Shown here in pieces: positions 3,427 to 59,360 of a DNA stretch of 64,000 bases. Made by a program: the position numbers and the translations under genes. The notes under the pieces are model-generated. The model was not told the origin of the DNA. It worked only from the letters and a program-made list of their open reading frames with translations, and did not search any database. Each line of letters begins with the position of its first letter. Position 1 is the stretch's first letter. Source of the DNA: a virus; the IMG/VR virus record IMGVR_UViG_3300032046_000005, positions 1 to 64,000 of that record; one strand, 5' to 3'.

Positions 3427-5118
3427 ATGTTAAATGATATAAAGCTATATTTTCCAAAACCAACATTTAGACCAAACCAAGAACAAATTTTGAAGGATGC
3501 GTTCAACGAGCTTGAGAAAGGAACGAAAGTAGTGATTATTGAGGGTCCGACTGGATTTGGGAAGTCTCCAGTTAATGTTGCAATTGGGAGAAAGTTCAAG
3601 CCGGCGTTTTACACGACACCACAAGTCAAGTTAGTGGAGCAATTGAACAACGATTTTGGTCAGAAGGGATTAGCGATTGATGGTTGTAGTTCAAGCGATA
3701 TAATGGCATTGTTGGGGAGAAAGAATTATATCTGTAAGTTATCAGGAACGAGTTCAGACGAATGTTATGGAAGAGAAGAAGGATGCTCGAAAGAAGAGAA
3801 ATGCACATATTGGAAACAAAAAATGGCTACTAGAGAAGCAGATATAGCAATTTTGACGTTTGCAATGTTGATCGTGAATACATACTTGCCAGAAACGATG
3901 GGTTTTCCGAAGCGAAAGTTATTGATAATAGATGAATGCCATGGACTTGAAGGACAAGTTGCGAGCATGTTTGCTGGATTCACGATAACTCCAGGAGCTT
4001 TTAGATACGATGGAAACATTTACATGGATTGGGAGATATTTTTGAGAAAAGTTCCAAGATTTGAGAAAGTTAAGAATAAATACATACTTGCAAATGATTA
4101 TAAAGAATTCATAACTGAAATTGGGAACATTTATGAAGACTTTTTTAGAGTTATAACACAACAAAAAGACAAGATTTCGCAAGGTTCGCAAGATAAAGTT
4201 GCAAACAAACTCAAGCAAATCGAATATCTCGAACAATCGATAAAGAACGATAGAAAATGGATAATTAATTTGACAAAGGAACACAATCAAATAACGAGAA
4301 TAGAGTTTAAACCTATTGATGTTGACTACTTTTTACAAGAAAAAATATGGTCTCAAGCTGAACAATATGTGTTAAGTTCAGCTACGATTCCATTTCGATA
4401 CAATGTTGAGAAATGGCTCAAACGATTAGGATTAAAGAACGAATCATATGCATTTTTATCAGCTCCGATGTCGTTCCCGATTGAAAACCGACCGATTTTG
4501 AGAACATTTATGGGGGGAGAAATGACTTATGGAAACGAAAGCATTAACTTTGATTCGAACGTGGAGAAATGCAGAGAAATCATTGAACAACATCCCAACG
4601 AACGGGGAGTAATACATTCGGTTAGTTTTGAAAGAGGAAAGAAAATTGCTAAGGCATTAGATGATGAAAGCATATTTTTACATGAATACCAATACAAAAA
4701 AAAAACAAATAAGAACGAAGAAGAAAACGGAGAAAAAGAAGATATTATAAACGATTGGCAACATTCACACAAGTTAATTTTGATATCGCCATCTGTATTT
4801 GAAGGTGTGGATTTGAAAGACGACATGTGCAGATATCAGATTTTATTTAAGGTTCCATATCCAAATACAGAAGATGGAAGAATCAACTATTTAGTAACCG
4901 AGAAAAAAGATTGGGTATGGTATATGAACGAAACGGCAAAAACAGTAATACAAATGTATGGAAGAGCTGTAAGAAGCGATATTGATCACGCGACATTCTA
5001 TATTGTTGATGGAAGCTTTAATAAGTTATTGAATAATAAAACAGTAAAGTTTCCTAAGTGGTTTCTTGAAGCTTTAGATATTAAAGAACTAACAATTGAC
5101 GATTATTTTAGCAAATAA
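3427..5118 (+). CDS. XPD/DinG-like superfamily 2 DNA helicase with Fe-S-type cysteines
   Basis: 563 residues with the full helicase set: Walker A GPTGFGKS (40-47), DECH box (169-172), SAT motif (318-320), a motif V-like SPSVFEGVDL (455-463) and motif VI QMYGRAVRS (509-517). Four cysteines between motifs Ia and II (C103, C113, C120, C126) match the position of the 4Fe-4S cluster in XPD, Rad3 and DinG. These enzymes unwind DNA 5' to 3' and use the cluster domain to wedge the duplex. The protein is shorter than cellular XPD/DinG (about 650-720 residues) but appears complete. A role in viral replication or recombination is likely. The stop codon lies just before the methyltransferase ATG. Confidence 0.85.
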   Translation: MLNDIKLYFPKPTFRPNQEQILKDAFNELEKGTKVVIIEGPTGFGKSPVNVAIGRKFKPAFYTTPQVKLVEQLNNDFGQKGLAIDGCSSSDIMALLGRKNYICKLSGTSSDECYGREEGCSKEEKCTYWKQKMATREADIAILTFAMLIVNTYLPETMGFPKRKLLIIDECHGLEGQVASMFAGFTITPGAFRYDGNIYMDWEIFLRKVPRFEKVKNKYILANDYKEFITEIGNIYEDFFRVITQQKDKISQGSQDKVANKLKQIEYLEQSIKNDRKWIINLTKEHNQITRIEFKPIDVDYFLQEKIWSQAEQYVLSSATIPFRYNVEKWLKRLGLKNESYAFLSAPMSFPIENRPILRTFMGGEMTYGNESINFDSNVEKCREIIEQHPNERGVIHSVSFERGKKIAKALDDESIFLHEYQYKKKTNKNEEENGEKEDIINDWQHSHKLILISPSVFEGVDLKDDMCRYQILFKVPYPNTEDGRINYLVTEKKDWVWYMNETAKTVIQMYGRAVRSDIDHATFYIVDGSFNKLLNNKTVKFPKWFLEALDIKELTIDDYFSK

Positions 5119-5119
5119 T

Positions 5120-5980
5120 ATGATTGAATATGAAAATAAAATTGTTTTAGGAGATTGTTTAGAAATATTACCTCAACTTCCTAATAAAATATTTGATTTG
5201 ATTATCATAGATTTACCATATAATCTTAAAAAAGATTTTCAAAATGATAATTTTTCTTCTTTTGATTTTAAAAAATTATTAAAAAAATGGATGAAAGAAA
5301 TCATATTAAAATTAAAAGAAAATGGAAGTATTTATATTTTTATGGGTCATGATTATAAAGAATATTTAAGAAGAATGTTATCAAAACATTTAATATTTAA
5401 AAGAGAATTGATTTGGTGGTATAAAGATTATGGAATAAAATGGGGAAAAGGAAATTATCTTTCTGAATTTGATTCTATTCTTTTTTTTGTTAAATCTGAT
5501 AATTATATTTTCAATTCAATCAAAAGGGAACCTTCTAAATCTACATTAAAAAGATGGAGTAAATATGCTGATACTGATGGTTTTATTGATTGGAAATATT
5601 TACCTCCATATCATAAAATAAAATATAAAACAGAAGAAAACTACAATAAAAATGGAAAATGGAATATAAATGTGGGCAAACGAATGGGAAATGTTTTTTG
5701 TATTCCTAGAGTTTCAAGAGGTAATAATCCAGAAAAGAAGTTTGGAAACCATCCAACCCAAAAACCGGAAGCATTGATAGAAAATTTCATAAAAGTAAGT
5801 TCTAATGAAAATGATTTAATAGGAGATTTTTTTATGGGTTCGGGAACAACTTGTGTAGTTGCTAAAAAATTAAGAAGAAAATATTTTGGATGTGAAATCG
5901 AATCAAAATATTGTGAAATAGCAAAAAAAAGATTGAATGATATCAATGTTTATCAAAACATAACTAAATTTTTCAAATAA
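5120..5980 (+). CDS. DNA methyltransferase, beta-class (N6-adenine or N4-cytosine)
   Basis: The catalytic motif IV DLPY (31-34) precedes the AdoMet-binding motif I FMGSG (238-242), the beta-class order. The NHPTQKP block (about 210-216) is the usual motif X-side signature of this family. The region between 80 and 200 would be the target-recognition domain. I chose ATG 5120 directly after the helicase stop; a TTG at 5096 in the same frame overlaps the helicase. It is one of four DNA methyltransferase genes here, of which one is broken, and probably marks viral DNA against host restriction. DLPY rather than DPPY is a mild variant. Confidence 0.85.
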   Translation: MIEYENKIVLGDCLEILPQLPNKIFDLIIIDLPYNLKKDFQNDNFSSFDFKKLLKKWMKEIILKLKENGSIYIFMGHDYKEYLRRMLSKHLIFKRELIWWYKDYGIKWGKGNYLSEFDSILFFVKSDNYIFNSIKREPSKSTLKRWSKYADTDGFIDWKYLPPYHKIKYKTEENYNKNGKWNINVGKRMGNVFCIPRVSRGNNPEKKFGNHPTQKPEALIENFIKVSSNENDLIGDFFMGSGTTCVVAKKLRRKYFGCEIESKYCEIAKKRLNDINVYQNITKFFK

Positions 5981-12686: not shown

Positions 12687-13502
12687 ATGGCATTTAAAAT
12701 AAAATTAAACAACGGAAAAATGATGAAAGGAATCATTGAAACTCTTTCAGCAATAATAGACGAAACAACGATTAAAGTTACACCTGAATTTTTTAAAATT
12801 GAAGCGATGGATCCAAGCCGAATTTGTTTGTTGCAACTCACGATCAAAAAAGAAAACTTTGATGAGTATAAATGCGATAAGGAATCGCTTGTTCCGTTAA
12901 ATTTGAGTGATTTTGATAAGATCTTGAAAAGGTTGAGTGCAAATGAATCTTTAGAACTTGAAGGCGATGAAAAAGATAATAAAATCAAGATAAAAATGCA
13001 GAAAGAAGGAACAAAACGACCAAGATCCTTTAGTTTGGCATTATTAGATATTGATCAAGAAAATGTTCCGTTTGAAAATCTATTCAAGATAGAATATCCT
13101 ACAAGAATAGAAATGAAAACACTTGTTTTAAACGAAGCAATCAAAGATGCGGAAATTTATTCAGAAATTCTAACTCTAAACGCAAAACCTGATGTTTTAC
13201 GATTATCTGCATCTGGGCAAATTGGAGAAATGGAATATCAGATCGATAAAGACGATTTAATTAACTATAAAACTGAAAAAGAAGAAAGTGGTCAATATTC
13301 TCTTACATTTCTAAAGGGAATCATGAGATTGAGTTCAATAACGGAAAACTTTAATATTTCCATGAAAACTGATCATCCGATCAAACTCGTATTCACGTTA
13401 GAAAATGGAGCAGAATTGAATTATTTTCTAGCTCCACGAGTAGAAGAAGCTGAAACATCAGATGAAGAATCAAGTGCATTTGCTGATGATTTCAAAGAAT
13501 AA
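12687..13502 (+). CDS. pcn: PCNA-like DNA sliding clamp
   Basis: 271 residues, close to the 245-265 of archaeal PCNA plus an acidic tail. The two-domain fold is visible: FKIKLNNGKMMKGIIETLSA, then FKIEAMDPSRICLLQLTI (the conserved D-P-S-x-I-C/V-L strand near residue 45), and in domain 2 GEMEYQID and the end NYFLAPRVEE, where the clamp's PIP-box pocket lies. PCNA encircles DNA and tethers polymerase, ligase and nucleases, so the virus supplies its own processivity factor. The acidic Ser/Asp C-terminus (about 15 residues) is an extension beyond the usual end. It has its own TATA box and a terminator-like hairpin after it. Confidence 0.9.
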   Translation: MAFKIKLNNGKMMKGIIETLSAIIDETTIKVTPEFFKIEAMDPSRICLLQLTIKKENFDEYKCDKESLVPLNLSDFDKILKRLSANESLELEGDEKDNKIKIKMQKEGTKRPRSFSLALLDIDQENVPFENLFKIEYPTRIEMKTLVLNEAIKDAEIYSEILTLNAKPDVLRLSASGQIGEMEYQIDKDDLINYKTEKEESGQYSLTFLKGIMRLSSITENFNISMKTDHPIKLVFTLENGAELNYFLAPRVEEAETSDEESSAFADDFKE

Positions 13503-13567: not shown

Positions 13568-13606
13568 ATGTTTTTATGTATTAAATAAAATTCAGATGAT
13601 TTTTTG

Positions 13607-14887
13607 ATGAATGAATCAATTCAAATATCAATGGAATATTTTACTAATCCATATGGATATATTTACGAAATTAGAAATAAAATTAACGGTAAAAGATATA
13701 TTGGGCAAACTACAAGGAAAAACGGATTTAGATGTCATTGGAAACTAAATACATTGTTGAAGAATTATGAAGGGAGCATTCATTTATATAATAGTATAAA
13801 AAAATATGGAATAGAAAATTTTGAAAGAAAAATTATTGATAGAGCATTAAGTAAAGAAGAATTGAATGAAAAAGAAGAATATCACATTCAAAAATATAAT
13901 ACGCTTAATTTTAATTATGGATATAATTTAAGACATGGAGGAACTTCTGGTAAAATAACTGATGAGATAAAAAAGAAAATGAGTGAAGGAGTAAAAAGAT
14001 TTTTTTTAAATGAAGAGAATAGGAAAAAACAAAGAGATCGAGTTCGAAGAGGAGAAAATCATCCATTTTTTGGAAAACATCATTCGGAAGAAACTAAAAA
14101 AAAAATAAGCAATAAATTAAAAGGAACACATATTTCAGAAGAAATTAAACAAAAAATAAGTAAAAATTCAAAAGGGAAATCTAAATCTGAAGAAACAAAG
14201 AAAAGAATGAGTAATGCGCAAAAAGGAAAACCACATTTTTGGAGCAAAGGAAAACGTTTTTCAGAAGAACATAAACAAAAAATATCACAAGCTAAAAAAG
14301 GAAAATGTCGTTCGAATGAAACAAAAGAAAAAATTAGTATGATATTGAAAAAATATTATGAAGAATATAACAAAAAGTATAATTTTACAAGAGAATATTT
14401 ATATGAACAATACAACGTTTTAGAAAAATCTATGGATCAAATTGCAAAAGAAAATAATTGTACTCATAAATTGATTAAAAAAAATCTTATAAAATATGGA
14501 ATAGAAATTAGAAATAAACCATCAAAAAAAACTAAAGAAAAAATCAGTAATTCGTTAAAAGGAAAAAGACGAGGTAAAGAAAATATGTTATATGGTAAAC
14601 ATCTTTCTGATGAACACAGAAAAAAGATTAGTGATTCATTAAAAGGAAAAAAACAAGGTAAAGAAAATCCAAACAATAAATTCTTTTTTATAAAAGAATA
14701 TTTAAATGAACAATATTGGAATTTAAAAAAAACAACAATAGAAATAGGAAAAGAGAATAATTGTAGTGGTAGTGTAATTCAATATTGGATGAAAAAATAT
14801 AATATTTATAAAAGATCAAAATCAGAAACTAAAAAACTATTAGATGAAAAAAGAAAAAGTGATTTAAATAATGGAAAAAACTCTTAG
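13607..14887 (+). CDS. GIY-YIG homing endonuclease with NUMOD3 repeats
   Basis: The N-terminal nuclease shows GYIYEI and RYIGQT (the GIY and YIG strands), the catalytic Arg in FRCHW and a downstream Glu in the LNEKEEYH helix. After residue 145 come six or more NUMOD3-type units (G-K-x-x-SEETKKKIS) that bind DNA. Two helix-turn-helix-like units, YLYEQYNVLEKSMDQIAKE and YLNEQYWNLKKTTIEIGKE, each end in a KYGI/KYNI strand. It is free-standing rather than within an intron: it sits between PCNA and the primase and overlaps the primase start by 17 bases. ATG 13607 follows an in-frame TTG. Presumably a selfish element that cuts virus genomes lacking it. Confidence 0.85.
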   Translation: MNESIQISMEYFTNPYGYIYEIRNKINGKRYIGQTTRKNGFRCHWKLNTLLKNYEGSIHLYNSIKKYGIENFERKIIDRALSKEELNEKEEYHIQKYNTLNFNYGYNLRHGGTSGKITDEIKKKMSEGVKRFFLNEENRKKQRDRVRRGENHPFFGKHHSEETKKKISNKLKGTHISEEIKQKISKNSKGKSKSEETKKRMSNAQKGKPHFWSKGKRFSEEHKQKISQAKKGKCRSNETKEKISMILKKYYEEYNKKYNFTREYLYEQYNVLEKSMDQIAKENNCTHKLIKKNLIKYGIEIRNKPSKKTKEKISNSLKGKRRGKENMLYGKHLSDEHRKKISDSLKGKKQGKENPNNKFFFIKEYLNEQYWNLKKTTIEIGKENNCSGSVIQYWMKKYNIYKRSKSETKKLLDEKRKSDLNNGKNS

Positions 14888-17798
14888 AGAAAAAATCATA
14901 GAAAAAGTAAATATTTTAGATGTTTATCCTTACAGTTCAACTCTAAAAAACGATAGAGGGGTATGTGAACTAAAAGGACAAAACACATACTCTCCATCAT
15001 TCGTAGTATATGATAATAGTAGTTGGAATTGTTTTTCGTGCGGACGAGGGGGTTCCGTAATAGATTTATATTCACATCTACACAACATTTCGTATCGTGA
15101 TTCTATTCTTGAACTTGCTCGTGAATACAAGATTGAAATTTCAGAAGAAGAAAAAGAAAAACTTTCAAAACTTGAAGAAATAAAGAAATGTTTCGACTAC
15201 TTCACTACAATTTGCCATAAGAACCTGAAACAATCAGAATACTACGAAAAAATCAAGGAAAAACGGAAGTTTTCTGATGCGTTGATGAACGAGTATCGAA
15301 TAGGATTGTTTGACGAAAGCATTAAAAACGAAATGGAAAGAAAGTTTGACAAACAACTTCTATTTGATGCGGGAATTTTGAACGATAAGGCAAATTGGTA
15401 TTTTGGCAAGCGAATCGTGTTTCCATATCTCAATTTGAGAAAAGAACCAGTATATTTTATATTTAGAAAAATTGACGATTCTCCTGATTTCATGGAAGCC
15501 AAATACGTGAAACTCCATAAAACTTCGTTTGTTCAAGAAGAGTTGTTTGGCATTGACTCAACTGCTAAGTTTAGAGACAAACCGTTGATAATAACAGAAG
15601 GAATTACCGATGCTTTATCGATTATTGATTGTGAATATCCTTGCATATCGCCTGTTACTATTAAATTTAAGAACATGGATACGAGCAATATATTGAACTA
15701 TGCAAAACATTTTGAAAAAGTGATTATCATAAACGATACTGATTTGAACGAAAAAGGACAAGAAGGAGCTGAGAAAAGTTTACAACTTTTACTCAAAAAC
15801 AACATTAATGCGTTTGTATTATTGATTCCAAATCCAGAAAATAGAGAATCGGTTGATTTGAACGATTATATTTCAGAATTTGGAAAAGATAAATTTGAAG
15901 AATTACTAAAAACTGCAAAAGAAGGTTTTTCATATTTTTTGGATAATATAAACAAGGATAGTAAACAAGAAGAAATTATTTTTGCATTATCGCTGATTCC
16001 AGAAAAAGACATCAAGAAAAAATCTGATGTATTTGCTACAATAACAGAAAAAACAAACAAGCGAATGGGAGTTCGAGGATTGAATGCTTTGTATAAAATG
16101 GTAAAAGATCAAGAAAAACAGAAAGAAAAACAAGAGGAAAAATCTTATGATGAAATGTTTGGAGTTGAAAGAGATAAAACATTAATATTTAAAACAAGAA
16201 TAAATAATATTGTAATTGAAAACAGAACAACTGGAGTGTTTAAAATAACTGAAGGAAAAGAATATGATAAAAACGAACAAATTATAAAACATCCAATTAT
16301 TTTAATAAGTAAAATGAAACACCATCTTAACGAATATTTTACTTATGATTTCAAAGGAGAAAGACATGTTACAGAAACAATATCAACCATGATTTCTTGT
16401 ATCAAGAATTATGTTGTTGGAGGAGAAACTACAAAGGAATTAATCCGGATATTAATTGACGATCAAGGAAAAGAATTGCCAGAAAAAAAATGCAAGGTTA
16501 TTCTTGGATTTGATAACGGATGGATTTTACCTTTCATAGAATCTGATTATAGTATATTAACAATTACTGATTTTCAAAGAGATGTATATGAAAAAGCAAA
16601 CAAATTATTAACAGAAAATGTTTTTTCTTTTGAAGAAATACGAGAAAAATTAATACGATTTATTGATTCAATTCAAATGAGAAAAGATAAACTTGTAATG
16701 ATAGTTGGTTGGGCAATGGCTTCCGTGTTCAAATTACCCATTCTTGAGTATTTCAATCTATTTCCAATGCTATTATTAACAGGAGATCCTCAAGCTGGTA
16801 AAACCTATGCTGTGAAACCGTTTGTTGTTGATTTTTACCGGATATGGACAAATTATTTCATTGGAAGTGGATTAGGAACTGCTGCTAGACTTGAAGATAT
16901 ATTGTCAACATCTACATTTCCTATTCAGATTGATGAACTTAAGGAAGTAAAAGATGTATTGATTGAAATATTGAAAGGAACATTGACAGGCATTCAAGAG
17001 TTCATGAGAAAATTGAACGTGATTGAAGGATTTAGAAAACCAGAAGTTGTTCCATTTGCTATTACTACGAACGATCCTCCTACACAGTTTTTAGATCCTG
17101 CCTTGAATTCAAGAATAATAACCATTGACTACGATAAATACGAGAAAATAACTGAAGAATATGAATGGGTTGAATTATACGACGAAATCAAGAGAATAAA
17201 CTTGTTTTATTATTTATACAAGCTTACAGAAAAATGGGATAATGCAATGGTCATAAACTTGATAAAAATCATAGAAAAAGACTGTCCTCATTTTTCGGAC
17301 GATTCACGATTGAGAAAGAAATACATTATTATCATGTTAGGTTTACACATATTTAGACTTACATTTAACATTGATTTGATCGATTATTTGAATCTTGAAT
17401 TGTTTAAAGAATCTGGAAAAATCATGAGTTTGTCGTTATTAGACCAATTCAAATTCTTTTGCAAGAGAGCGATGGAGTTTAGAGACGAATTCGTGGAAAA
17501 ATATACTGATGCGCAAGGAAACGAACGAACATCGGTTGTAAGAGGTTCTGGAACATCGTTCATAACTTGCAAGTTGGAAAAATACGAGTTTGCAGATGGT
17601 AAGTATTATGTTTTCACTCAAGATCATTTGCGGGACTTTAACACGTATGCTCAACCAAGCCAAAAATACAAGATGCGACCATTAGTGACAATGTTGCTCG
17701 ATGCACTAGACGATAAAACAATAATACAATATGACACTTATAGATACAAGGGGAAATCAGAACGCGTGGTGAGAATTAATATAAAATGGTTGGAATAA
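14871..17798 (+). CDS. primase-helicase (DnaG-type TOPRIM primase fused to P-loop helicase)
   Basis: 975 residues. The N-terminal zinc region has C32, C54 and C57 in the CHC2 arrangement with the PSF strand, but the expected His is Lys35. TOPRIM core: Glu243 in IITEGITDAL and DTD 289-291 in IIINDTDLNEKG. The C-terminal half has Walker A GDPQAGKT near 638-645, a probable Walker B in QIDELKEV, and near 740-755 ITTNDPPTQF then SRIITIDYD, as sensor and arginine-finger regions of a ring helicase. It would lay primers and unwind DNA at the viral fork. Codon use becomes AT-poorer in the N-terminal part. ATG 14871 lies inside the end of the homing endonuclease gene. Confidence 0.8.
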   Translation: MEKTLREKIIEKVNILDVYPYSSTLKNDRGVCELKGQNTYSPSFVVYDNSSWNCFSCGRGGSVIDLYSHLHNISYRDSILELAREYKIEISEEEKEKLSKLEEIKKCFDYFTTICHKNLKQSEYYEKIKEKRKFSDALMNEYRIGLFDESIKNEMERKFDKQLLFDAGILNDKANWYFGKRIVFPYLNLRKEPVYFIFRKIDDSPDFMEAKYVKLHKTSFVQEELFGIDSTAKFRDKPLIITEGITDALSIIDCEYPCISPVTIKFKNMDTSNILNYAKHFEKVIIINDTDLNEKGQEGAEKSLQLLLKNNINAFVLLIPNPENRESVDLNDYISEFGKDKFEELLKTAKEGFSYFLDNINKDSKQEEIIFALSLIPEKDIKKKSDVFATITEKTNKRMGVRGLNALYKMVKDQEKQKEKQEEKSYDEMFGVERDKTLIFKTRINNIVIENRTTGVFKITEGKEYDKNEQIIKHPIILISKMKHHLNEYFTYDFKGERHVTETISTMISCIKNYVVGGETTKELIRILIDDQGKELPEKKCKVILGFDNGWILPFIESDYSILTITDFQRDVYEKANKLLTENVFSFEEIREKLIRFIDSIQMRKDKLVMIVGWAMASVFKLPILEYFNLFPMLLLTGDPQAGKTYAVKPFVVDFYRIWTNYFIGSGLGTAARLEDILSTSTFPIQIDELKEVKDVLIEILKGTLTGIQEFMRKLNVIEGFRKPEVVPFAITTNDPPTQFLDPALNSRIITIDYDKYEKITEEYEWVELYDEIKRINLFYYLYKLTEKWDNAMVINLIKIIEKDCPHFSDDSRLRKKYIIIMLGLHIFRLTFNIDLIDYLNLELFKESGKIMSLSLLDQFKFFCKRAMEFRDEFVEKYTDAQGNERTSVVRGSGTSFITCKLEKYEFADGKYYVFTQDHLRDFNTYAQPSQKYKMRPLVTMLLDALDDKTIIQYDTYRYKGKSERVVRINIKWLE

Positions 17799-19271
17799 TG
17801 GAAGAATATAGAAATAAAGTTTTTAATATTGATTGCAGAGAAGGTTTGAAATTATTACCTGATTCCTCAATTGATTGTGTTATCACATCACCACCGTATT
17901 GTTATTAAAAATAACGCGGAATGGTTTTTGAGGGATTATAAAATAGAACCATCGATTTGGGATGGAGATCCAAATTGTCAACATGATTGGGATATGAATA
18001 TTATTATAGAAAAAAAAGGTTCTGGATCTATGTATGGAAGAATTGCTAATGAACAAGGAATTGAATGTAAAACCTCTTCTGCATTTAATAATATTTCTAA
18101 AAGAAAAGAAGGATTTTGTTTGAAGTGTGGAGCTTGGAAAGGAGTTTTAGGATTAGAACCTTCGTTTGAATTGTATATTAAACATTTATGTGATATTTAC
18201 GATTTGGTATGGCGCGTCCTAAAACCAAGTGGAATAAATTTCGTAAATTTAGGAGATTCTTACAATGGAACAGGTGGTGGTCATAAGTTTGAAAATAGAG
18301 AATCGTATAAAAAATATAATCCGAATATAAATTATTTTAATGAAGGAAAAAATGACAAATCATTATCTCAAAAATGTTTGTTAATGATTCCATATCGCTT
18401 TGCCATTGAGATGTGCAATCGGGGTTGGATATTACGCAATGTCTTGATTTGGCACAAGAAAAATTGCATGCCCTCAAGTGCAAGAGATAGGTTTACAGTA
18501 GACTTTGAACCAATGTTCTTCTTTACTAAATCAAAAAGATATTGGTTTGACCAAGACGCAGTAAGGGAAAAATCAGATAAAAATAGTGGTTGGGTTAAAC
18601 AAAGAGAAAAAGGAGTTGATAATATAACTCCTTATCAGACAGAAGGAAATGGAAAATGGGCTAAACCTAATATTGAATGCAATCCAAATGGAAGAAATAA
18701 AAGGTGTGTGTGGACAATCAACACGGTTGGAAATCCAGAAGCACATTTTGCTACATTCCCTTTAAATTTAGTGAAGCCAATGATTCTTTCTGGATGTCCA
18801 AAAGAAGTTTGCAAGAAGTGTGGAAAACCAAGAGAAAGAATTATTGAAACTGTTAATCAAGAACAAATATCAAAAGAAAAATACAATTCTAAGTATAATT
18901 CTAATTATGGACAAGAATTACAAGGTTTTGTAAGAAATAATTCTATTAAAAATCAACGAGATTTAAGTAGAATTGAATCTAAAAAATTATTTTTTAACGA
19001 TATTAAAAAACAAAAAGAATATATTAAAAAAATTCACGACAGTAATACTGGAAAACCTAAAATATCTAAAGGTTGGTCAGATTGTGGTTGCAACGAAGGG
19101 TTTAAACATGGAATCATGTTAGATATATTCGCAGGCACGGGAACGACCTTGCTTCAAGCTTGGGAACTTGGAAGAGATTATGTGGGTTTTGAAATTTCAA
19201 AAGAATATTGTAAAATGATCGAAAAACGATTAAAAACTACACAAAATAAAAGAATGGATGATTTTTTTTAA
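17798..19271 (+). pseudogene. DNA methyltransferase split by a 22-base insertion after its TSPPY motif
   Basis: From ATG 17798 (overlapping the primase stop) the frame encodes 36 residues ending TSPPYCY and stops at TAA 17906-17908. The rest continues one frame over from about 17922: WFLRDYKIEPSIWDGD, a KCGAWKGVLGLEP block, NLGDSYNGTG, a Cys4 knob (CPKEVCKKCGK) and the AdoMet motif DIFAGTGTT near the C-terminus. Removing bases 17900-17921 restores the family signature TSPPYWFLRDY exactly. Beta-class order suggests N4-cytosine or N6-adenine methylation. Either dead, or rescued by frameshifting or bypass, or a variant among genomes. All other motifs look intact. Confidence 0.8.
17900..17921 (+). 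repeat. 22-base hairpin insertion inside methyltransferase
   Basis: The insertion begins TGTTATTAAAAATAAC and ends GCGGAA. It contains a perfect 6-bp inverted repeat, GTTATT (17901-17906) and AATAAC (17910-17915), around a 3-base A loop, and brings two TAA stops into the original frame. The borders are ambiguous by one T. I noticed no second copy in the window. Confidence 0.7.
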
Positions 19272-19825
19272 TGAAGTTCAAAACAATACTTATAGATCCG
19301 CCTTGGGAATACGATGATAAACTAGATGACACAAGAAAGAAACCTTACAAAACACTAACAATTTATGATTTAGCCAATCTACCCATCAAGAAACTTGCAA
19401 ACGATGATTGTCACTTGTTCTTATGGACTACAAATTCTTTTCTTGAAGAAGCATTAAAACTTTTGAAATGTTGGAGTTTCAAGTATATATGTGGTATTAC
19501 TTGGTTGAAAAGAACAAATTCAGGCAAGTTGTGGTTTGGAATGGGACATTATTTCAGAATATGCACCGAACATTGCTTGTTTGCACATCGTGGTAATGTG
19601 AAACTTAAAACTAAGAATACAAGAAACATCATTGATGCAAAAAAACCACAAAATCATCATGCTGCCAAACCAATCGAAATGTATGATTTGATCGAGAAGA
19701 ATTGCTATCCTCCATACTTGGAATTGTTTGCTACAAGTAAAAGAAACGGTTGGACATCATTAGGATACGAGATTAATCAGAAAGATATCCAAGACGAATT
19801 GCAAGAATTGATTAATAACTTATAG
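19271..19825 (+). CDS. MT-A70-family adenine N6-methyltransferase
   Basis: 184 residues starting ILIDPPWEYDD, where DPPW (9-12) is the catalytic motif of the MT-A70/IME4/M.MunI-like family. It is followed by FLWTTNSFLEEAL and, near the C-terminus, HHAAKPIEMYDLIE and LELFATSKRNGWTSLGYEI (the AdoMet-side F-A-R/S-x-x-x-G-W strand). It transfers methyl from AdoMet to adenine N6, in phages usually in DNA. The start overlaps the stop of the broken methyltransferase by one base, so the two formed a unit. Confidence 0.85.
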   Translation: MKFKTILIDPPWEYDDKLDDTRKKPYKTLTIYDLANLPIKKLANDDCHLFLWTTNSFLEEALKLLKCWSFKYICGITWLKRTNSGKLWFGMGHYFRICTEHCLFAHRGNVKLKTKNTRNIIDAKKPQNHHAAKPIEMYDLIEKNCYPPYLELFATSKRNGWTSLGYEINQKDIQDELQELINNL

Positions 19826-24023: not shown

Positions 24024-24797
24024 ATGAATAATATATTAGAATTATTTTCTACAGAAGTTGGAAGCAGGATGTGGCGCATGGAACACGAGCATTCTGATTT
24101 TGATCGAAACGTTGTATATGTAACGGATTCTAGAGAATTCTTGTTAGGAGAAAGGATGCAAGGAAAACAAGTTCAAAACAAAGAAGAAAATACCGATTAC
24201 ACGTATTACGAAATAGGAATGTTGATTAGAGGTTTGATGTCTGGAAATGTAAATTATCTATGGACAGTCATGAGTCCAATTTGCTTAGAACAATATAGAA
24301 CTTCGTTTACCGAATTGCGAGATGTTGTTTCAACAAACTTGAGCAAGGATTACTATCGTTCGATTAGTGGATTTGCTTCACATAACATGTATCATTTCAT
24401 TACGGGAGAAACAAAATCAAAAGAAATAAAAGAAATACAAGAAAAACAAAAAACTGGACCACTTGTGTTAGGAGAACAGTTCAAATTAGTTGAAGAACAC
24501 GTGAAAAGACAACAAAAAGCTACACGAGAAATTGATAGAGAATCGTTATTGTTCAAAAAGAAATTGAATGTTATTGGAAGAACGTTGAAGTTTGGAATTA
24601 ACTTGTTATTATGGCATAAGGCAATGTTTGAAAAGGTTGATATTAAAGACGAAAAAGAACTTTATGACTTGAAAAACGAACTTGATAAAGCGTATGTAAA
24701 TTGTACATTACCTGAAAAACCAAATCCAGAACCTTTTGAAAAGTATCTGATTAAATGGAGATTGCATAAACTAAAGAAAGATGGGTTGATTGAATGA
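24024..24797 (+). CDS. predicted nucleotidyltransferase, YcgL/COG3541-like
   Basis: The start VGSRMWRMEHEHSDFDRNVV fits the pol-beta nucleotidyltransferase motif G-S-x(n)-S-D-x-D, with the two catalytic acids in SDFD. A later TDYTYYEIGMLIRGLMSGN matches the helix after the third acid in the YcgL-type family found in phages and bacteria. The C-terminal half is helical. The transferred group is unknown. ATGA overlap with the next gene. Confidence 0.65.
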   Translation: MNNILELFSTEVGSRMWRMEHEHSDFDRNVVYVTDSREFLLGERMQGKQVQNKEENTDYTYYEIGMLIRGLMSGNVNYLWTVMSPICLEQYRTSFTELRDVVSTNLSKDYYRSISGFASHNMYHFITGETKSKEIKEIQEKQKTGPLVLGEQFKLVEEHVKRQQKATREIDRESLLFKKKLNVIGRTLKFGINLLLWHKAMFEKVDIKDEKELYDLKNELDKAYVNCTLPEKPNPEPFEKYLIKWRLHKLKKDGLIE

Positions 24798-26349: not shown

Positions 26350-27747
26350 ATGCCAAAACTTAGAGTTGGAATAGCATCGATTGGAGGTAAGTTTAGATTG
26401 GTAAATACAATTCTTAACTTTGTCCCCTATCATGAATTTTTCTTGAGTTTGTTCTGTGGCGCTTGTTGGGTTGAAATTAATCAACCTCGTTCGAGATATG
26501 AATGTTGGAATGATAGAAATTCGGAGACAATTAACTATTTATTGATGGTAAGGCAATATCCAAAAGAATTTGACGAGATGAAGCAAGGAGTGTTTGGTTT
26601 AGTGAGTCAAGAGATTTGTAATAGGATTGTAAGAGGGGAGATAAAACCTCAAAATAATCTTGAGAGAGGATTTCTGTTTTATTATTTAAACAAATTGACT
26701 TTCGCTGGAGATGTTAAGAAGATTGGTGATGATGCTCATTATTCAGGCATACAAAATCCTTGCATTAATTCGATACGCGAAACAGACTTGGAGAAAGCGA
26801 AAGAACGATTTGATGATAATGTTCACGCGAATTATGGAGGATTAGGAACTGGAGTTATGGGAAGTAAAGAAGGAAGGTTTCCTCGCAAAAACGATGTCGA
26901 ACAAGCTAAAGATGAATACAAAACAAAAGGATACGCTGGAATGAACCAAAACAGAATTGATTCAAAAGAAATCGAAAAAGCCAAGTCAACTTATCGAGGT
27001 ATTGTACCAGATGGTTCGCTCGTAGGTTTGGAAGATTTTAACGCAGAAAAAACAAAAGCATCATATACTGGAATCAACAACACGAGAGCATTGGGACCGT
27101 CCGGAAACAAGCGAGATCGTGCAAAATGGCAACAAGAGTTTCAAGAGAATGCTGAAAATGCAAATTATCGAGGTATTGCAGAAAAAGATGGTTTAACCGA
27201 AACTACTTCGAAACAATACCAAACAGTTTCACACGAATCAGTATCAGGATATAAGGGAATTAATCCAATCGTGACGAGACCATATACGAATTTTGATCGA
27301 GGTTTACTCACTCCACTACAACCTGAAGCGATCGAACGATTGCGGTTCGTGAACATAACTTGCTACGATTTTAGAAAGGTGTATAAATTGTTCTATAAAG
27401 CATTTTACGAACGAAAAGGACTTTCGAAAGAATGTTTTATATATGGAGATCCTCCTTTTCCAGGAAGCGAGCATTATTATGGAAACTTGTTCAAGAAAGA
27501 AGACCACCAAGATTTAATAGACTTGATGTTAAAAACTCCGTTCAATTTCATGTTAAGTATGGGAGGAGAATGTGAAATGTATCTCAAACAATTGAAAGAT
27601 TGGAACATCGTGCCTCTAAAGGTGAAATATAGCATGGATGCAAACAACCAATACGATCGGAACGAATACCTTATCATGAACTATGAGATAAAGAAATCGG
27701 CAAAAATGACAAATAATTGTCAAGGAAATATTACCAAGTTTTTTTGA
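26350..27747 (+). CDS. Dam-like adenine-N6 DNA methyltransferase with a repeat insertion
   Basis: Alpha-class order: the AdoMet site IGGKFRLVNTILNFVP plus LFCGAC (35-39) comes first, ECWNDRN (51-57) follows, and catalytic DPPF (367-370, usually DPPY) is near the end. Between them, from about 130 to 310, lies a large insertion with seven degenerate units centred on Y-x-G-[ILM] (HYSGI, NYGGL, GYAGM, TYRGI, SYTGI, NYRGI, GYKGI). Classic Dam is about 280 residues; this is 465. The insertion sits where the target-recognition domain would be. The C-terminus ends NITKFF. Probable role: sequence-specific adenine methylation of viral DNA. Confidence 0.7.
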   Translation: MPKLRVGIASIGGKFRLVNTILNFVPYHEFFLSLFCGACWVEINQPRSRYECWNDRNSETINYLLMVRQYPKEFDEMKQGVFGLVSQEICNRIVRGEIKPQNNLERGFLFYYLNKLTFAGDVKKIGDDAHYSGIQNPCINSIRETDLEKAKERFDDNVHANYGGLGTGVMGSKEGRFPRKNDVEQAKDEYKTKGYAGMNQNRIDSKEIEKAKSTYRGIVPDGSLVGLEDFNAEKTKASYTGINNTRALGPSGNKRDRAKWQQEFQENAENANYRGIAEKDGLTETTSKQYQTVSHESVSGYKGINPIVTRPYTNFDRGLLTPLQPEAIERLRFVNITCYDFRKVYKLFYKAFYERKGLSKECFIYGDPPFPGSEHYYGNLFKKEDHQDLIDLMLKTPFNFMLSMGGECEMYLKQLKDWNIVPLKVKYSMDANNQYDRNEYLIMNYEIKKSAKMTNNCQGNITKFF

Positions 27748-27756
27748 GATGATGAA

Positions 27757-28485
27757 ATGAACTTAGGAGAACGAATAAAAAATTATTATGAAAACCAATG
27801 GAAGTTCAAGTTGCCCATGCGAATGCCCATAATCGTGAGAATTGATGGTAAAAACTTTCACACTTGGACTAGAAAACACCAATGTGTAAAACCATTTGAT
27901 CGTGAATTGATGAAGATATTTGACGAATCAGCCGTGCATTTATGTTATATGATTCCTGACGTTCAATTTGCTTATTTACAATCGGACGAAATCAATTTAT
28001 TGATTCATAATTACAAAACAATTGAACAAGAAGCTTGGTACGATAATAACTTGCAAAAGATTGTTTCAATCATAGCAAGTACATATAGTAGTTTGTTTAA
28101 TTTTTTATACTTTTCAAAAGACTTTTACGAATTAGCGTTTTTTGATTGTAGAGCGTTTTGTTTGCCAGAAAATGAAGTTGTTAATTATTTTATATGGAGA
28201 CAAAAAGATTGGGAACGAAATTCGATTCAAATGTTGGCAAGACAGTTTTATAGTCATAAGGAATTGAACAACAAAAAACGAGACGAAATTCACGAAATGT
28301 TGTTTCAAAAGAACGTGAATTGGGCAAATCTTTCTACTCAATTGAAAAACGGAAGATGTGTCGTGAAAAGGGATGATAAATGGATTGTTGATCACGAAAT
28401 ACCTATATTTACTCAAGACCGTGAATATGTGGAAAAATACTTGAAAATTGAAGATAATGATTTTAATAAGTTGGTAAATGTTTGA
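27757..28485 (+). CDS. Thg1-like tRNA(His) guanylyltransferase / 3'-5' polymerase
   Basis: 242 residues with the Thg1 hallmarks: RIDGKNFH (28-35, metal Asp30), QSDEINLL (SDE 76-78, the second carboxylates), DCRAFCLPENEVVNYFIWRQ (about 130-149) and NSIQMLARQFYSHKEL. The family adds nucleotides to RNA 5' ends. Eukaryotic Thg1 adds G-1 to tRNA(His); archaeal and bacterial Thg1-like proteins repair 5'-truncated tRNAs by templated 3'-5' synthesis. No tRNA gene is seen here, so the substrate is probably host tRNA, perhaps damaged by defence nucleases (inference). Nearly full family length. Confidence 0.88.
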   Translation: MNLGERIKNYYENQWKFKLPMRMPIIVRIDGKNFHTWTRKHQCVKPFDRELMKIFDESAVHLCYMIPDVQFAYLQSDEINLLIHNYKTIEQEAWYDNNLQKIVSIIASTYSSLFNFLYFSKDFYELAFFDCRAFCLPENEVVNYFIWRQKDWERNSIQMLARQFYSHKELNNKKRDEIHEMLFQKNVNWANLSTQLKNGRCVVKRDDKWIVDHEIPIFTQDREYVEKYLKIEDNDFNKLVNV

Positions 28486-38469: not shown

Positions 38470-38787
38470 ATGGAATTAAGAAAAATAAAAATCATAACTC
38501 TATGCGGATCTTCTCGATTTGAAGATGATTTTCATAGAATAAATTCAGAATTAACGCTTGAAGGAAACATTGTATTATCGCTAGGAGTGTGGAGACATCA
38601 ATATAAAAGAGAATTGTTTAAAGAAGAAACGGATTTGTTAGATTTATTGCATTACATGAGAATAGACATGTCGGATGCTATTTATGTGGTGAATAAAGAT
38701 GGATATATGGGAGAATCAACAAAGAAAGAAATAATGTATGCTAAAATGAAAGGAAAAGAAGTATATTATATGGAGGAAATTGTATAA
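38470..38787 (+). CDS. nucleoside 2-deoxyribosyltransferase-like protein
   Basis: About 105 residues with the fold signature of the nucleoside deoxyribosyltransferase/DUF4406 group: a first strand and loop KIITLCGSSRFEDDF, then MRIDMSDAIYVVNKDGYMGE (D-x-A-x-x-x-x-N-x-x-G-x-G-x-S/E) and a helix TKKEIMYAKMKGKEVYY. The family cleaves or transfers the N-glycosidic bond of nucleosides or nucleotides, so nucleotide salvage or signalling is possible. ATG 38470 was preferred over ATG 38449 within the previous gene. Confidence 0.65.
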   Translation: MELRKIKIITLCGSSRFEDDFHRINSELTLEGNIVLSLGVWRHQYKRELFKEETDLLDLLHYMRIDMSDAIYVVNKDGYMGESTKKEIMYAKMKGKEVYYMEEIV

Positions 38788-38788
38788 T

Positions 38789-39187
38789 ATGGAAGATTTA
38801 AGATTTTACATTATAGTAAGAACTGATGTTGCATTTAGTATTGGAAAACTACTAGTTCACGTAGGACATTTATGCAGTAAATTAGCAAGTGATTTTTTGT
38901 TTGAATTAGAAAAAGACGATGAAACATATTTGGATCTTCTCAAACGATATACAACATGGTATGGAAATGGAACAACTCAAACCAAGATTGTTTTGAAAGA
39001 ATATGGACTTGAAGATGTAATGTATTACTACGAAAAAGCAAAGCAAAAGAAATTTCCTGCATATTGCATAGAAGATGCTGGATTCTACGAAGTTGAAAAA
39101 GGAACAGTTTTAATGGTTGGAATTGGTCCCATTTCGAAAGAAGAAGCAAAAGAAATTGGATTAGATACGTTGAAACTTTACAAATAA
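38789..39187 (+). CDS. pth2: peptidyl-tRNA hydrolase, Pth2 type
   Basis: 132 residues, close to archaeal Pth2 (about 115-120). Matches run along the whole length: FYIIVRTDVAFSIGKLLVHVGHLC (VVR-x-D-L-x-x-x-x-GK-x-A-x-Q-x-x-H region), TKIVLKEYG, AYCIEDAGFYEVEKGT and LMVGIGPISKEE, ending LDTLKLYK. The enzyme frees tRNA from peptidyl-tRNA drop-off products. The usual AQ before the His helix is VH here, a modest change near the active site. ATG 38789 was chosen; an upstream TTG overlaps the previous gene. With the Thg1-like gene it points to tRNA upkeep during infection. Confidence 0.85.
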   Translation: MEDLRFYIIVRTDVAFSIGKLLVHVGHLCSKLASDFLFELEKDDETYLDLLKRYTTWYGNGTTQTKIVLKEYGLEDVMYYYEKAKQKKFPAYCIEDAGFYEVEKGTVLMVGIGPISKEEAKEIGLDTLKLYK

Positions 39188-56821: not shown

Positions 56822-56974
56822 TTAATTCTTTTTATCTTCAACATCAACAATTCTTGCAATTCCCATCTTGACTAATTGTTGAGCTTGTTCTTCAGTAATA
56901 TCTTTTTCAATTATTGCTGAATCAAAAAAGATTTTATCGTTTTCTTTAAACTTGATTTCAATTATTCTTTTCAT
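56822..56974 (-). CDS. hypothetical mini-protein, 50 aa
   Basis: ATG 56974 overlaps the end of the large head protein; stop TAA at 56822-56824. Two strands and a helix (KRIIEIKFKENDKIFFDSAI; EEQAQQLVKMGIARIVDVED). Unknown function. Confidence 0.5.
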   Translation of the reverse strand: MKRIIEIKFKENDKIFFDSAIIEKDITEEQAQQLVKMGIARIVDVEDKKN

Positions 56975-59360
56975 ATTTTTTCATTCTTTCTCTAAAAAAT
57001 TTACTTATTTCCGGAAAGTATTGGTATTGTTTTTTATTTTCTTTCCAACTTTCCCAAATATATAAAGGTTTTTTTACTTCATAATATCGTTTAAAACTTT
57101 CAGCAAACAATTCTTGAACATCGTTAGCTTCATATCTCAATCCTTCAGCCATATTTTTTTTATATTCGTATTCAAAACTTCCTTTTTTATCATCTGCTTC
57201 TTTTTCCCAAATATCAGCATCATGTAACATTATTTTTTTGTATTTTTTATGAATGCTTTTAAAGATTTCTTGATCGTGCAGAGTTAATCCATACCAAACC
57301 GAATGTCCAAGTTCGTGTCTAGTAGTTGATGGCATTGCTTTTCTGTTTAATATTATATTATTGTTTCCAATCAAATAAACTCCTTCAATATCGTTATATT
57401 TTCTAGTCCAACCAACTTTTTTATATGCTTCTGGAACTTTTCCATTGTCATCTTTCATATTTGGGTCATCAGTTATTTGGTTATAAACTCTTACCTCATT
57501 TACCATTGCTTTTAATCGAAACGGAAAACTTCTGATTGTTTCGTCAATTACTCGAATTTCCCAAGGATCTCTCGTTAAATCTATGTTTTTATCAACCTTC
57601 AAACTTAATTCTGATTTTTGGTAAGGTTCGTCTGAAAAATAACCTTTATACAATATTGCATTCAATTCTTCTGGAGTATAATATTTTGGTTTAGGAGGAT
57701 TTCTAATCTTGTATAAATGTTGCCTTCCTACGGTTGAATTGAACCAATGATATGATTGACAAAATGTGCAAAAATATTTACGTTTCAAATCTTCGGTTAA
57801 ATCGTTAAAATCATTCAATTGCAAAACATTGAATTCATGAAAGTCAATGCGGGGCAATCCCAACACTCCTCCACCAGTTCTAAATCCTTTAATCTTCATT
57901 TCTCTCATTCCTTCTCTTGCTTGAAGCCATTTTTCGACTCTTGAACCAATGTCGGGATTTTGAGTTGGATTAGGAGTTGTTCGTTTCATTTGTCTTACAA
58001 TTTCGTCAAACTTCTTGACTCTTGTAACGGGAACTCGATTCGAAACCGTGTATGGAACTAATGATGCTGTTGTTCCTCCAATCGTTTTAATTTCTGGATG
58101 AAAATATGCGGGACCTAATTTTGATGATGTTACTTTTTCTCCTGCTTGATGTCCTCTAAGATTTTTCCACACCCAACGACCAGGAGAACCGCTTTTAAGA
58201 AGGGATTTCCACGCTTCTTCTGCTACTTCTGGAGATTGGAATTTATATCGATATGTTCTTTGAGGAGTTAACCCTTTTGGGTGAAATTGAACAAGTAATT
58301 CGTTATTGAATTGTCCTCCAGCTTTAACGTTTGTACTTGAAACAGGAGTGAGTTGTTTTGTGTATTTTTCGAGGTTTTCTAGTATTTCTCCTTGAATTTC
58401 AGCGCCAGTTTCTGTATTGGTTAACGAAAATGGAACAGTTATACTTTGAACTGGTCCAACTTCAAATGCTTCCTCGCCAAGTTGTGATCGAATCGATTTA
58501 CCAACGGTCGTTCGTTTAGCTCCAGAAATCATTGCACTAGGAGTTCCTTTCTTCAAACCTCTTATGTCTTCAGTGAAATCGTTTATTGTGTCAAATGTGT
58601 TTGCAATGTCTTCTAATGTTTCGCTTAATGATTTAGGTAAGGGATAATCTTCAACAAAATTATAAGCAATTATTCCTTTTTTGAGATAATAATCATTAAA
58701 TGTTTTTGAAGCAAATGCTTTATCAATAACAAGAGTTGGAATATTCAACAATCTTGCTAAAGTAATATCTCCTCTTCGTAAAAGATCAATATCTTTCCAA
58801 TCTTTTCTGGCTTTTTCTTTTACTGAAATAATTAATGGACTAATTCTTTTTGAACTTTCTATGATATCATACTTATCTCCATAAAATTCTTTCAAAAATA
58901 TATCTTTATCTAATTTTTCAATTTCTTTTATTAGATTTTCAGCAACTCCTTCAAAAGTTTCTGGAGGCAAATCTTTTATATCAACTTGTTTAGATAAAGT
59001 AGGAATTCCTATTGATTGTAAATAACAATCAAAACCTATAACTCCTATATTTGTTTCAAGAGCTTTTTTTAATTGTCTTCCACAAATTTCACATTTTGCG
59101 TGATATTCTTTTTTTATGATAATTTTATTTACTTTTATATTTTGTTTATTCTTTATAAGTTCTTTGTCTTTTTCAACTTTTTCTTTTTTATATTCTTCGA
59201 GTTTAATGATTTTGTTCTGTAATTGATTATGTAAATGTTCTTTACCAACATCAGAATCAAAGTAATGATTAGACTTGCAGATGTTACAAAAATATGTATT
59301 CTTGTTATCTAGAGCAATTTCTCCAATGCTTTCTAGATGTATTGGTTTATAAACTTTCAT
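56958..59360 (-). CDS. large head-associated protein with zinc fingers and HELGH metallopeptidase domain
   Basis: About 800 residues from ATG 59360. Two zinc fingers of the type YFC-x-[IF]-C-x-S-x-H (NTYFCNICKSNHYFDSDVGK near the start, KRKYFCTFCQSYHWF near 550) and a DUF6011-like finger (KCEICGRQL then GVIGFDC). The C-terminal domain carries HELGH near residues 682-686 in MPSTTRHELGHSVWYGL, with downstream DVQELFAESFKRYY giving the third ligand Glu, a gluzincin-like or lethal-factor-like pattern. It may be a minor head or ejected protein that processes targets during assembly or entry. Overlaps the previous gene by 14 bases. Confidence 0.55.
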   Translation of the reverse strand: MKVYKPIHLESIGEIALDNKNTYFCNICKSNHYFDSDVGKEHLHNQLQNKIIKLEEYKKEKVEKDKELIKNKQNIKVNKIIIKKEYHAKCEICGRQLKKALETNIGVIGFDCYLQSIGIPTLSKQVDIKDLPPETFEGVAENLIKEIEKLDKDIFLKEFYGDKYDIIESSKRISPLIISVKEKARKDWKDIDLLRRGDITLARLLNIPTLVIDKAFASKTFNDYYLKKGIIAYNFVEDYPLPKSLSETLEDIANTFDTINDFTEDIRGLKKGTPSAMISGAKRTTVGKSIRSQLGEEAFEVGPVQSITVPFSLTNTETGAEIQGEILENLEKYTKQLTPVSSTNVKAGGQFNNELLVQFHPKGLTPQRTYRYKFQSPEVAEEAWKSLLKSGSPGRWVWKNLRGHQAGEKVTSSKLGPAYFHPEIKTIGGTTASLVPYTVSNRVPVTRVKKFDEIVRQMKRTTPNPTQNPDIGSRVEKWLQAREGMREMKIKGFRTGGGVLGLPRIDFHEFNVLQLNDFNDLTEDLKRKYFCTFCQSYHWFNSTVGRQHLYKIRNPPKPKYYTPEELNAILYKGYFSDEPYQKSELSLKVDKNIDLTRDPWEIRVIDETIRSFPFRLKAMVNEVRVYNQITDDPNMKDDNGKVPEAYKKVGWTRKYNDIEGVYLIGNNNIILNRKAMPSTTRHELGHSVWYGLTLHDQEIFKSIHKKYKKIMLHDADIWEKEADDKKGSFEYEYKKNMAEGLRYEANDVQELFAESFKRYYEVKKPLYIWESWKENKKQYQYFPEISKFFRERMKKYEKNN

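Follow-up and report, generated by a model that had tools for sequence, protein, structure and literature searches.

How a viral DNA methyltransferase gene can be interrupted directly behind its catalytic motif and nevertheless remain intact in its remaining part is the question raised by a locus in the IMG/VR virus record IMGVR_UViG_3300032046_000005. We analyzed the first 64,000 nucleotides (nt) of this 115,632-nt record (hereafter the window), in which a gene for an N4/N6 DNA methyltransferase is split by an insert of 22 nt. From the sequence and its predicted fold we consider it very probable that these 22 nt represent an archaeal-type pre-mRNA intron with a bulge-helix-bulge (BHB) structure.

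The start codon of the split gene overlaps the stop codon of the upstream primase gene (14871-17798), and the first reading frame runs through MEEYRNKVFNIDCREGLKLLPDSSIDCVITSPPY to the residues CY and a stop codon. The two in-frame TAA codons described in an earlier note on this DNA are present at 17906-17908 and 17912-17914, and an unspliced RNA encodes a 36-residue peptide only. One frame over, TGG 17922 opens a stretch of 449 codons that ends with the stop at 19271, and this part alone matches PF01555 (2e-34) and also the phrog_67 DNA methyltransferase. Joining position 17899 to 17922 in silico results in an uninterrupted PF01555 N4/N6 methyltransferase of 483 residues, which carries TSPPYWFLRDY, IWHKKN, a Cys4 knuckle and FAGTGTT. 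This confirms the previous impression that the rest of the gene is intact and not a case of ordinary decay. Due to a TG at both ends of the insert three placements lead to the same product (17900-17921, 17901-17922 and 17902-17923).

The boundaries of the insert are set by the relatives of the protein. The motif TSPPY(W/F)xLRxY is uninterrupted in all five homologues from archaeal viruses and phages (Methanobacterium virus Drs3, Methanoculleus virus L4768, Halobacterium phage phiH, Halorubrum tailed virus 29 and a Manatee Spring virus). The uninterrupted gene was also sought in related genomes, as the earlier note had proposed, and a continuous TSPPY(W/Y/F)xLRxY-like motif was found in 75 of 80 IMG/VR relatives and in 76 of 80 genome relatives. 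The five remaining IMG/VR sequences comprise three in which the first letters of the motif vary (L019, L024, L048), one that is not covered there (L092) and one with a 6-nt insert (L054); a further one, L087, was counted as continuous and has one extra residue in the motif. Seven extra residues between TSPPY and WxLRDY occur in none of about 150 relatives, and the counter-case named beforehand, intact relatives carrying the same residues in frame, was thus not found among them. As about 150 relatives read through the motif, the 22 nt are foreign to the methyltransferase family, and the proposed precise insertion at 17900-17921 after the catalytic TSPPY could be verified.

The RNA around the insert is predicted to fold into a BHB (Table 1). 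The GTTATT/AATAAC hairpin noticed earlier is a perfect 6-bp inner hairpin within this structure, and the central helix and the 5' bulge are those of a BHB with a 4-bp helix and two 3-nt bulges. Cleavage at the canonical site, behind the second nucleotide of each bulge, would free exactly 17900-17921 and restore TSPPYWFLRDY, and of the three equivalent placements this is the only one that matches the cut sites. A loose BHB with fixed boundary and 22-nt spacing occurs with a frequency of 1.2e-4 per position in this genome as well as in Markov sequence; the strong form was detected once in 231,104 genome positions, which is the insert itself, and not at all in 4 Mb of Markov sequence. Additional evidence comes from the codons of the predicted exon helices, where TCC, CCG and AGG are rare (4%, 7% and 7% of the Ser, Pro and Arg codons, respectively) and contribute G-C pairs with their third bases. 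CCG belongs to the central-helix strand CCGU, and TCC and AGG are part of the exonic clamp. These codons were selected post hoc, yet of the 27 codons around the junction no others have a share below 10%.

A comparable interruption exists in a second, unrelated virus. We scanned IMG/VR for TSPPY and LRDY located 10-40 extra nt apart and translated each match, which revealed L210 (IMGVR_UViG_3300009034_000114, 38,691 nt) and L181 (IMGVR_UViG_3300042991_001167, reverse strand, around 1971); together with L054 (IMGVR_UViG_3300003690_000022, 2570) from the earlier list of relatives, three further interrupted genes were examined. The serine codons allowed in this split-motif pattern were TCA and TCT in IMG/VR and TCA only in archaeal genomes, where 398 + 295 + 293 genomes of three archaeal phyla gave three matches and no split methyltransferase. 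L210 has the same sequence at both ends, so the genome is probably complete. Its junction reads MDKWINKFHVGDTLEILKQIPYEFVDCIMTSPPY^AGAGCTTAGCTCGAGGTA^WGLRDYSVEGQIGLEE, with an 18-nt insert at the Tyr/Trp codon junction as in the window. The insert is in frame but contains a TAG, and its removal leads to a complete methyltransferase. The minimum-energy fold of L210 is a strict BHB with a 4-bp helix and two 3-nt bulges (outer helix CCC/GGG and beyond, central helix CCUU/GAGG, bulges AC^A and UA^U, inner hairpin GAGC-UUA-GCUC), and canonical cuts release exactly the 18 nt. The rate of a loose BHB in the L210 genome is 8e-5 per boundary, which corresponds to a chance of about 2e-4 allowing for the three examined genes.

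The only match of the L210 major capsid protein is Halogranum tailed virus 1, which is also the best match of the terminase, and the methyltransferase groups with proteins of Geothermarchaeota and Diapherotrites (95% support in the SH-like approximate likelihood ratio test, SH-aLRT). These three affinities indicate that L210 is an archaeal virus. The methyltransferase of the window is located in another clade with Methanobacterium virus Drs3 (99%), and the L210 insert has neither a flanking repeat nor sequence similarity to the 22 nt. As both putative introns are alike in position and layout and unlike in sequence and clade, two gains seem likelier than a single old one followed by many losses. 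Of the two other interrupted genes, L181 has a 10-nt insert just past TSPPYW and, behind its IIW motif, what looks like an intein, and L054, a phage with 58% GC, reads TSPP-stop-PYWGLRDY with a 6-nt insert containing TGA. Both were inspected as candidate introns and rejected, as neither folds into a good BHB.

Several points weigh against an intron. The 3' bulge of the window may comprise only 2 nt (AA), if U17922 pairs with A17893; a BHB with 2-nt/3-nt bulges has served as substrate in an mRNA context (PMC8707768). The BHB conformer lies 0.6 kcal/mol above the minimum-energy fold, in which the inner helix is shifted by one register. The z-scores of the fold vary with the stretch from -0.7 to -3.9, with -3.1 to -3.9 for larger folds including the clamp and -0.7 to -2.2 for shorter or other stretches, and fold energy by itself is no proof of an intron. 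A genome-wide scan of the record for other frame-restoring BHB introns yielded chance-like candidates only, as did a scan of L210. L181 and L054 demonstrate that interruptions at this motif are not always introns, and we infer cleavage, ligation and the participating enzymes from sequence.

The serious rival that remains is a recent insertion that killed the gene, with a coincidental BHB-like fold and an open second part that marks a young pseudogene. The insert is a lone copy, splicing rests on inference, and the interruptions of L181 and L054 show that methyltransferases can be split in the absence of a BHB. However, a BHB that cuts exactly at the boundaries defined by homology has a chance of about 1e-4, and neither the rare codons in the exon helices nor a second textbook BHB at the same junction of another virus is explained by this scenario, which we therefore regard as unlikely. 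Translational recoding, either by bypass as in T4 gene 60 and the yeast mitochondrial byps or by a +1 frameshift, could join the frames as well. Recoding is known in Archaea (PMC8211752), and a stop shortly past the junction and a hairpin in the gap would suit it. A hop that yields TSPPYW requires a landing codon that matches the take-off codon TAT 17897-17899, but 17919-17921 is GAA, and a frameshift would put seven residues into a near-invariant motif which is almost never lengthened, at a TAT TAA that is not known as a slippery site. Furthermore, no frameshift is needed for the L210 insert, which keeps the frame, and the BHB geometry would be superfluous, which makes recoding very improbable.

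Still less credit can be given to a sequencing or assembly artefact: the record is metagenomic, but errors do not typically produce a structured insert of 22 nt that sits precisely at a codon junction, and an unrelated insert of like kind comes from a separate data set (L210). A tiny mobile hairpin or a reversible on/off switch at the DNA level, for which the 2-nt TG repeat at the insert and the 12-bp ORF (open reading frame) indels of rudiviruses (PMC4390879) could be cited, is just as improbable, as a search allowing up to 3 mismatches detected the 22-mer only once in the 115,632-nt record and IMG/VR contains no further exact match, and the L210 insert is unrelated and without flanking repeat. 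Of the interpretation in the earlier note the small, precise insertion with a hairpin stands, whereas bypass, frameshift, mobile hairpin and switch fit less well than a BHB intron. BHB splicing was missing from its options because the virus had not been recognised there as archaeal.

The archaeal character of the virus is read from its genome. It encodes a terminase and a portal protein and hence belongs to a tailed virus. The only match of its PCNA sliding clamp in the phage collection is a haloarchaeal virus, and the peptidyl-tRNA hydrolase PTH2 is of the archaeal/eukaryotic type. In addition, (A)AACATTTAAATA boxes of the B recognition element/TATA type (BRE/TATA) are repeated about 25 nt upstream of starts, and TTTAAATA occurs 56 times compared with 40 +/- 7.5 expected. 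Judged from PCNA, PTH2 and these promoters, this is a virus of archaea. The promoter is distributed over the whole record, e.g., at 87315(-), 95238(+), 104757(+) and 113245(+), in the order AAACATTTAAATA, about 10-15 nt, an ATATATA-like sequence and the start codon. Searches with primase, PCNA and terminase revealed no relatives of this virus in IMG/VR.

The tRNA genes point in the same direction. ARAGORN in its default mode without introns reported no tRNA and Rfam two tRNAs of about 149 nt, which ARAGORN with introns resolved into a tRNA-Leu(UAA) with a 65-nt and a tRNA-Ser(GGA) with a 60-nt intron, both in the anticodon loop. Group I introns are far larger than this. By eye, the Leu intron has a central helix CUUA/UGAG and a 3' bulge AAA, and the Ser intron a partial central helix only. 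On these features the viral tRNA introns are of archaeal type, and with such tRNAs the virus appears to be already dependent on the tRNA-splicing endonuclease of its host.

Table 1. Predicted elements of the split methyltransferase gene and other features mentioned in the text (window numbering unless stated otherwise).
Feature	Position	Strand	Basis or remark
N4/N6 DNA methyltransferase gene, interrupted	17798-19271	+	start ATG 17798, stop at 19271
Putative exon 1 (MEEYRNK...VITSPPY)	17798..17899	+	reading frame, homologues
Putative exon 2 (WFLRDY..., with zinc knuckle, FAGTGTT and the stop codon)	17922..19271	+	frame, PF01555, homologues
Predicted 22-nt BHB intron UGUUAUUAAAAAUAACGCGGAA	17900..17921	+	fold; junction fixed by relatives
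Central 4-bp helix, 5' strand CCGU	17894..17897	+	pair probabilities 0.93-1.0
Central helix, 3' strand GCGG, intronic	17916..17919	+	fold
5' bulge AU^U	17898..17900	+	predicted cut after 17899
3' bulge AA^U	17920..17922	+	predicted cut after 17921
Inner hairpin GUUAUU-AAA-AAUAAC	17901..17915	+	17901-17906 pairs with 17910-17915
Outer helix ACCA with UGGU	17890..17893 with 17922-17925	+	pair probabilities 0.84-0.98
Exonic clamp UGAUUCCUCAA with UUGAGGGAUUA	17860..17870 with 17928-17938	+	11 bp, seen in larger folds
PCNA sliding clamp	12687..13502	+	archaeal marker
PTH2	38780..39187	+	
tRNA-Leu(UAA)	record 79184-79332 (L004:15184-15332)		one of the sole two tRNAs detected
tRNA-Ser(GGA)	record 79342-79491 (L004:15343-15490)		one of the sole two tRNAs detected
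Other likely methyltransferase genes, window	5096-5980, 19271-19825, 26350-27747		
Other likely methyltransferase genes, rest of record	81275-82042, 110435-111907, 112616-113272		

With a BHB intron as the preferred reading, the transcript would adopt this fold around the insert, EndA, the tRNA-splicing endonuclease of the host, would cut both bulges between nt 2 and 3, and an RtcB-type host ligase or a viral RNA ligase would seal the exons. The predicted spliced junctions are CCACCGTAT joined to TGGTTTTTG in the window and CCCCCTTAC joined to TGGGGACTT in L210. The sealed exons would restore TSPPYWFLRDY and with it an active DNA methyltransferase. As the unspliced RNA yields just the short peptide, synthesis of the enzyme would have to await splicing; this requirement may be a form of regulation or neutral baggage. 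Tentatively, one could go further and assume that tailed viruses of archaea acquire tiny BHB introns at catalytic codons of enzyme genes on independent occasions, and that these introns serve as a licence or timing device which makes DNA modification dependent on the host. The active enzyme would then appear only in places and at times at which the tRNA-splicing machinery of the host is present, similar to a proposal for the cellular cbf5 gene, and the recurrence at one Tyr/Trp junction would reflect either an insertion site preference or selection for disruption of the catalytic site.

The kind of intron is already known from cbf5 pre-mRNAs of Crenarchaeota (Watanabe 2002; Yokobori 2009), in which introns of 16-44 bp with a BHB or relaxed BHB are located at the codon of the catalytic Asp and are cleaved after the second nucleotide of each bulge (PMC2738675; BHB geometry in PMC4090602). 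The putative viral introns share with them the short length, the BHB and a location at a catalytic codon of a coding gene. The cbf5 introns are cellular and confirmed by cDNA, whereas here the gene is that of a viral DNA methyltransferase, two or more inserts of unrelated sequence occupy one codon junction, and splicing is predicted. Beside cbf5, the only other BHB intron of an mRNA is said to be that in the 5' untranslated region of HVO_1309 in Haloferax, which is processed by the splicing endonuclease (PMC7714728); it shares the mRNA context with the viral case but differs by its non-coding position and cellular origin. Activity of the archaeal splicing endonuclease on a BHB in mRNA context is documented (PMC8707768; PMC7714728). 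Archaeal tRNA introns (11-129 nt, BHB; PMC4090602) share the structure and the expected enzyme, and the class is present in the virus's own tRNAs, with the difference of tRNA versus mRNA context. The lengths of 22 nt (window) and 18 nt (L210) are within the ranges of both cbf5 and tRNA introns.

In viruses, putative 12-bp introns were suggested for the rudivirus SIRV1 (Peng 2004), with splicing unproven (cited in PMC2738675 and PMC4390879), and 12-bp-type indels are common in rudiviruses and lipothrixviruses (PMC4390879). They resemble the inserts described here as tiny proposed introns in ORFs of an archaeal virus. However, their length is a multiple of three and may leave the coding sequence intact, whereas the present inserts contain stop codons (in the window also a frameshift), have to be removed for a functional product and show explicit BHBs. 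T4 gene 60 and the mitochondrial byps likewise have a short hairpin gap with a stop in a coding sequence; here matched codons are lacking and a BHB is found instead. In the open-licence PMC literature we saw no viral methyltransferase described as carrying a BHB intron, and we consider the putative intron probably real. Hardly any such introns are known from protein-coding genes, and in viruses only the unproven 12-bp inserts had been suggested. If our interpretation is true, viral mRNAs use the tRNA-splicing pathway, genes of archaeal viruses labelled as broken may be intact, and the origin of archaeal mRNA introns and their location at catalytic sites can be tested directly by exposing short RNAs to purified enzymes.

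Some features of the genome should also be mentioned. The homing-type nuclease noticed earlier in the vicinity is indeed present as a GIY-YIG/NUMOD3 nuclease upstream of the split gene (13604-14887). The virus has about seven likely DNA methyltransferase genes, only some of which were checked against family models; they include a member of the MT-A70 family directly behind the split gene and one fusion with a ParB-like domain. An RlaP-like nucleotidyltransferase (window 24024-24797), Thg1 (window 27757-28485) and an RNA ligase (record 98145-99044) possibly form a viral RNA-repair set; these proteins could contribute to RNA repair, and nothing ties them to splicing of the insert. Two overlapping large ORFs in different frames, 56958-59381(-) and 59347-60939(-), both have N-terminal regions with DNKNTY, which points to a possible duplication or frameshift.

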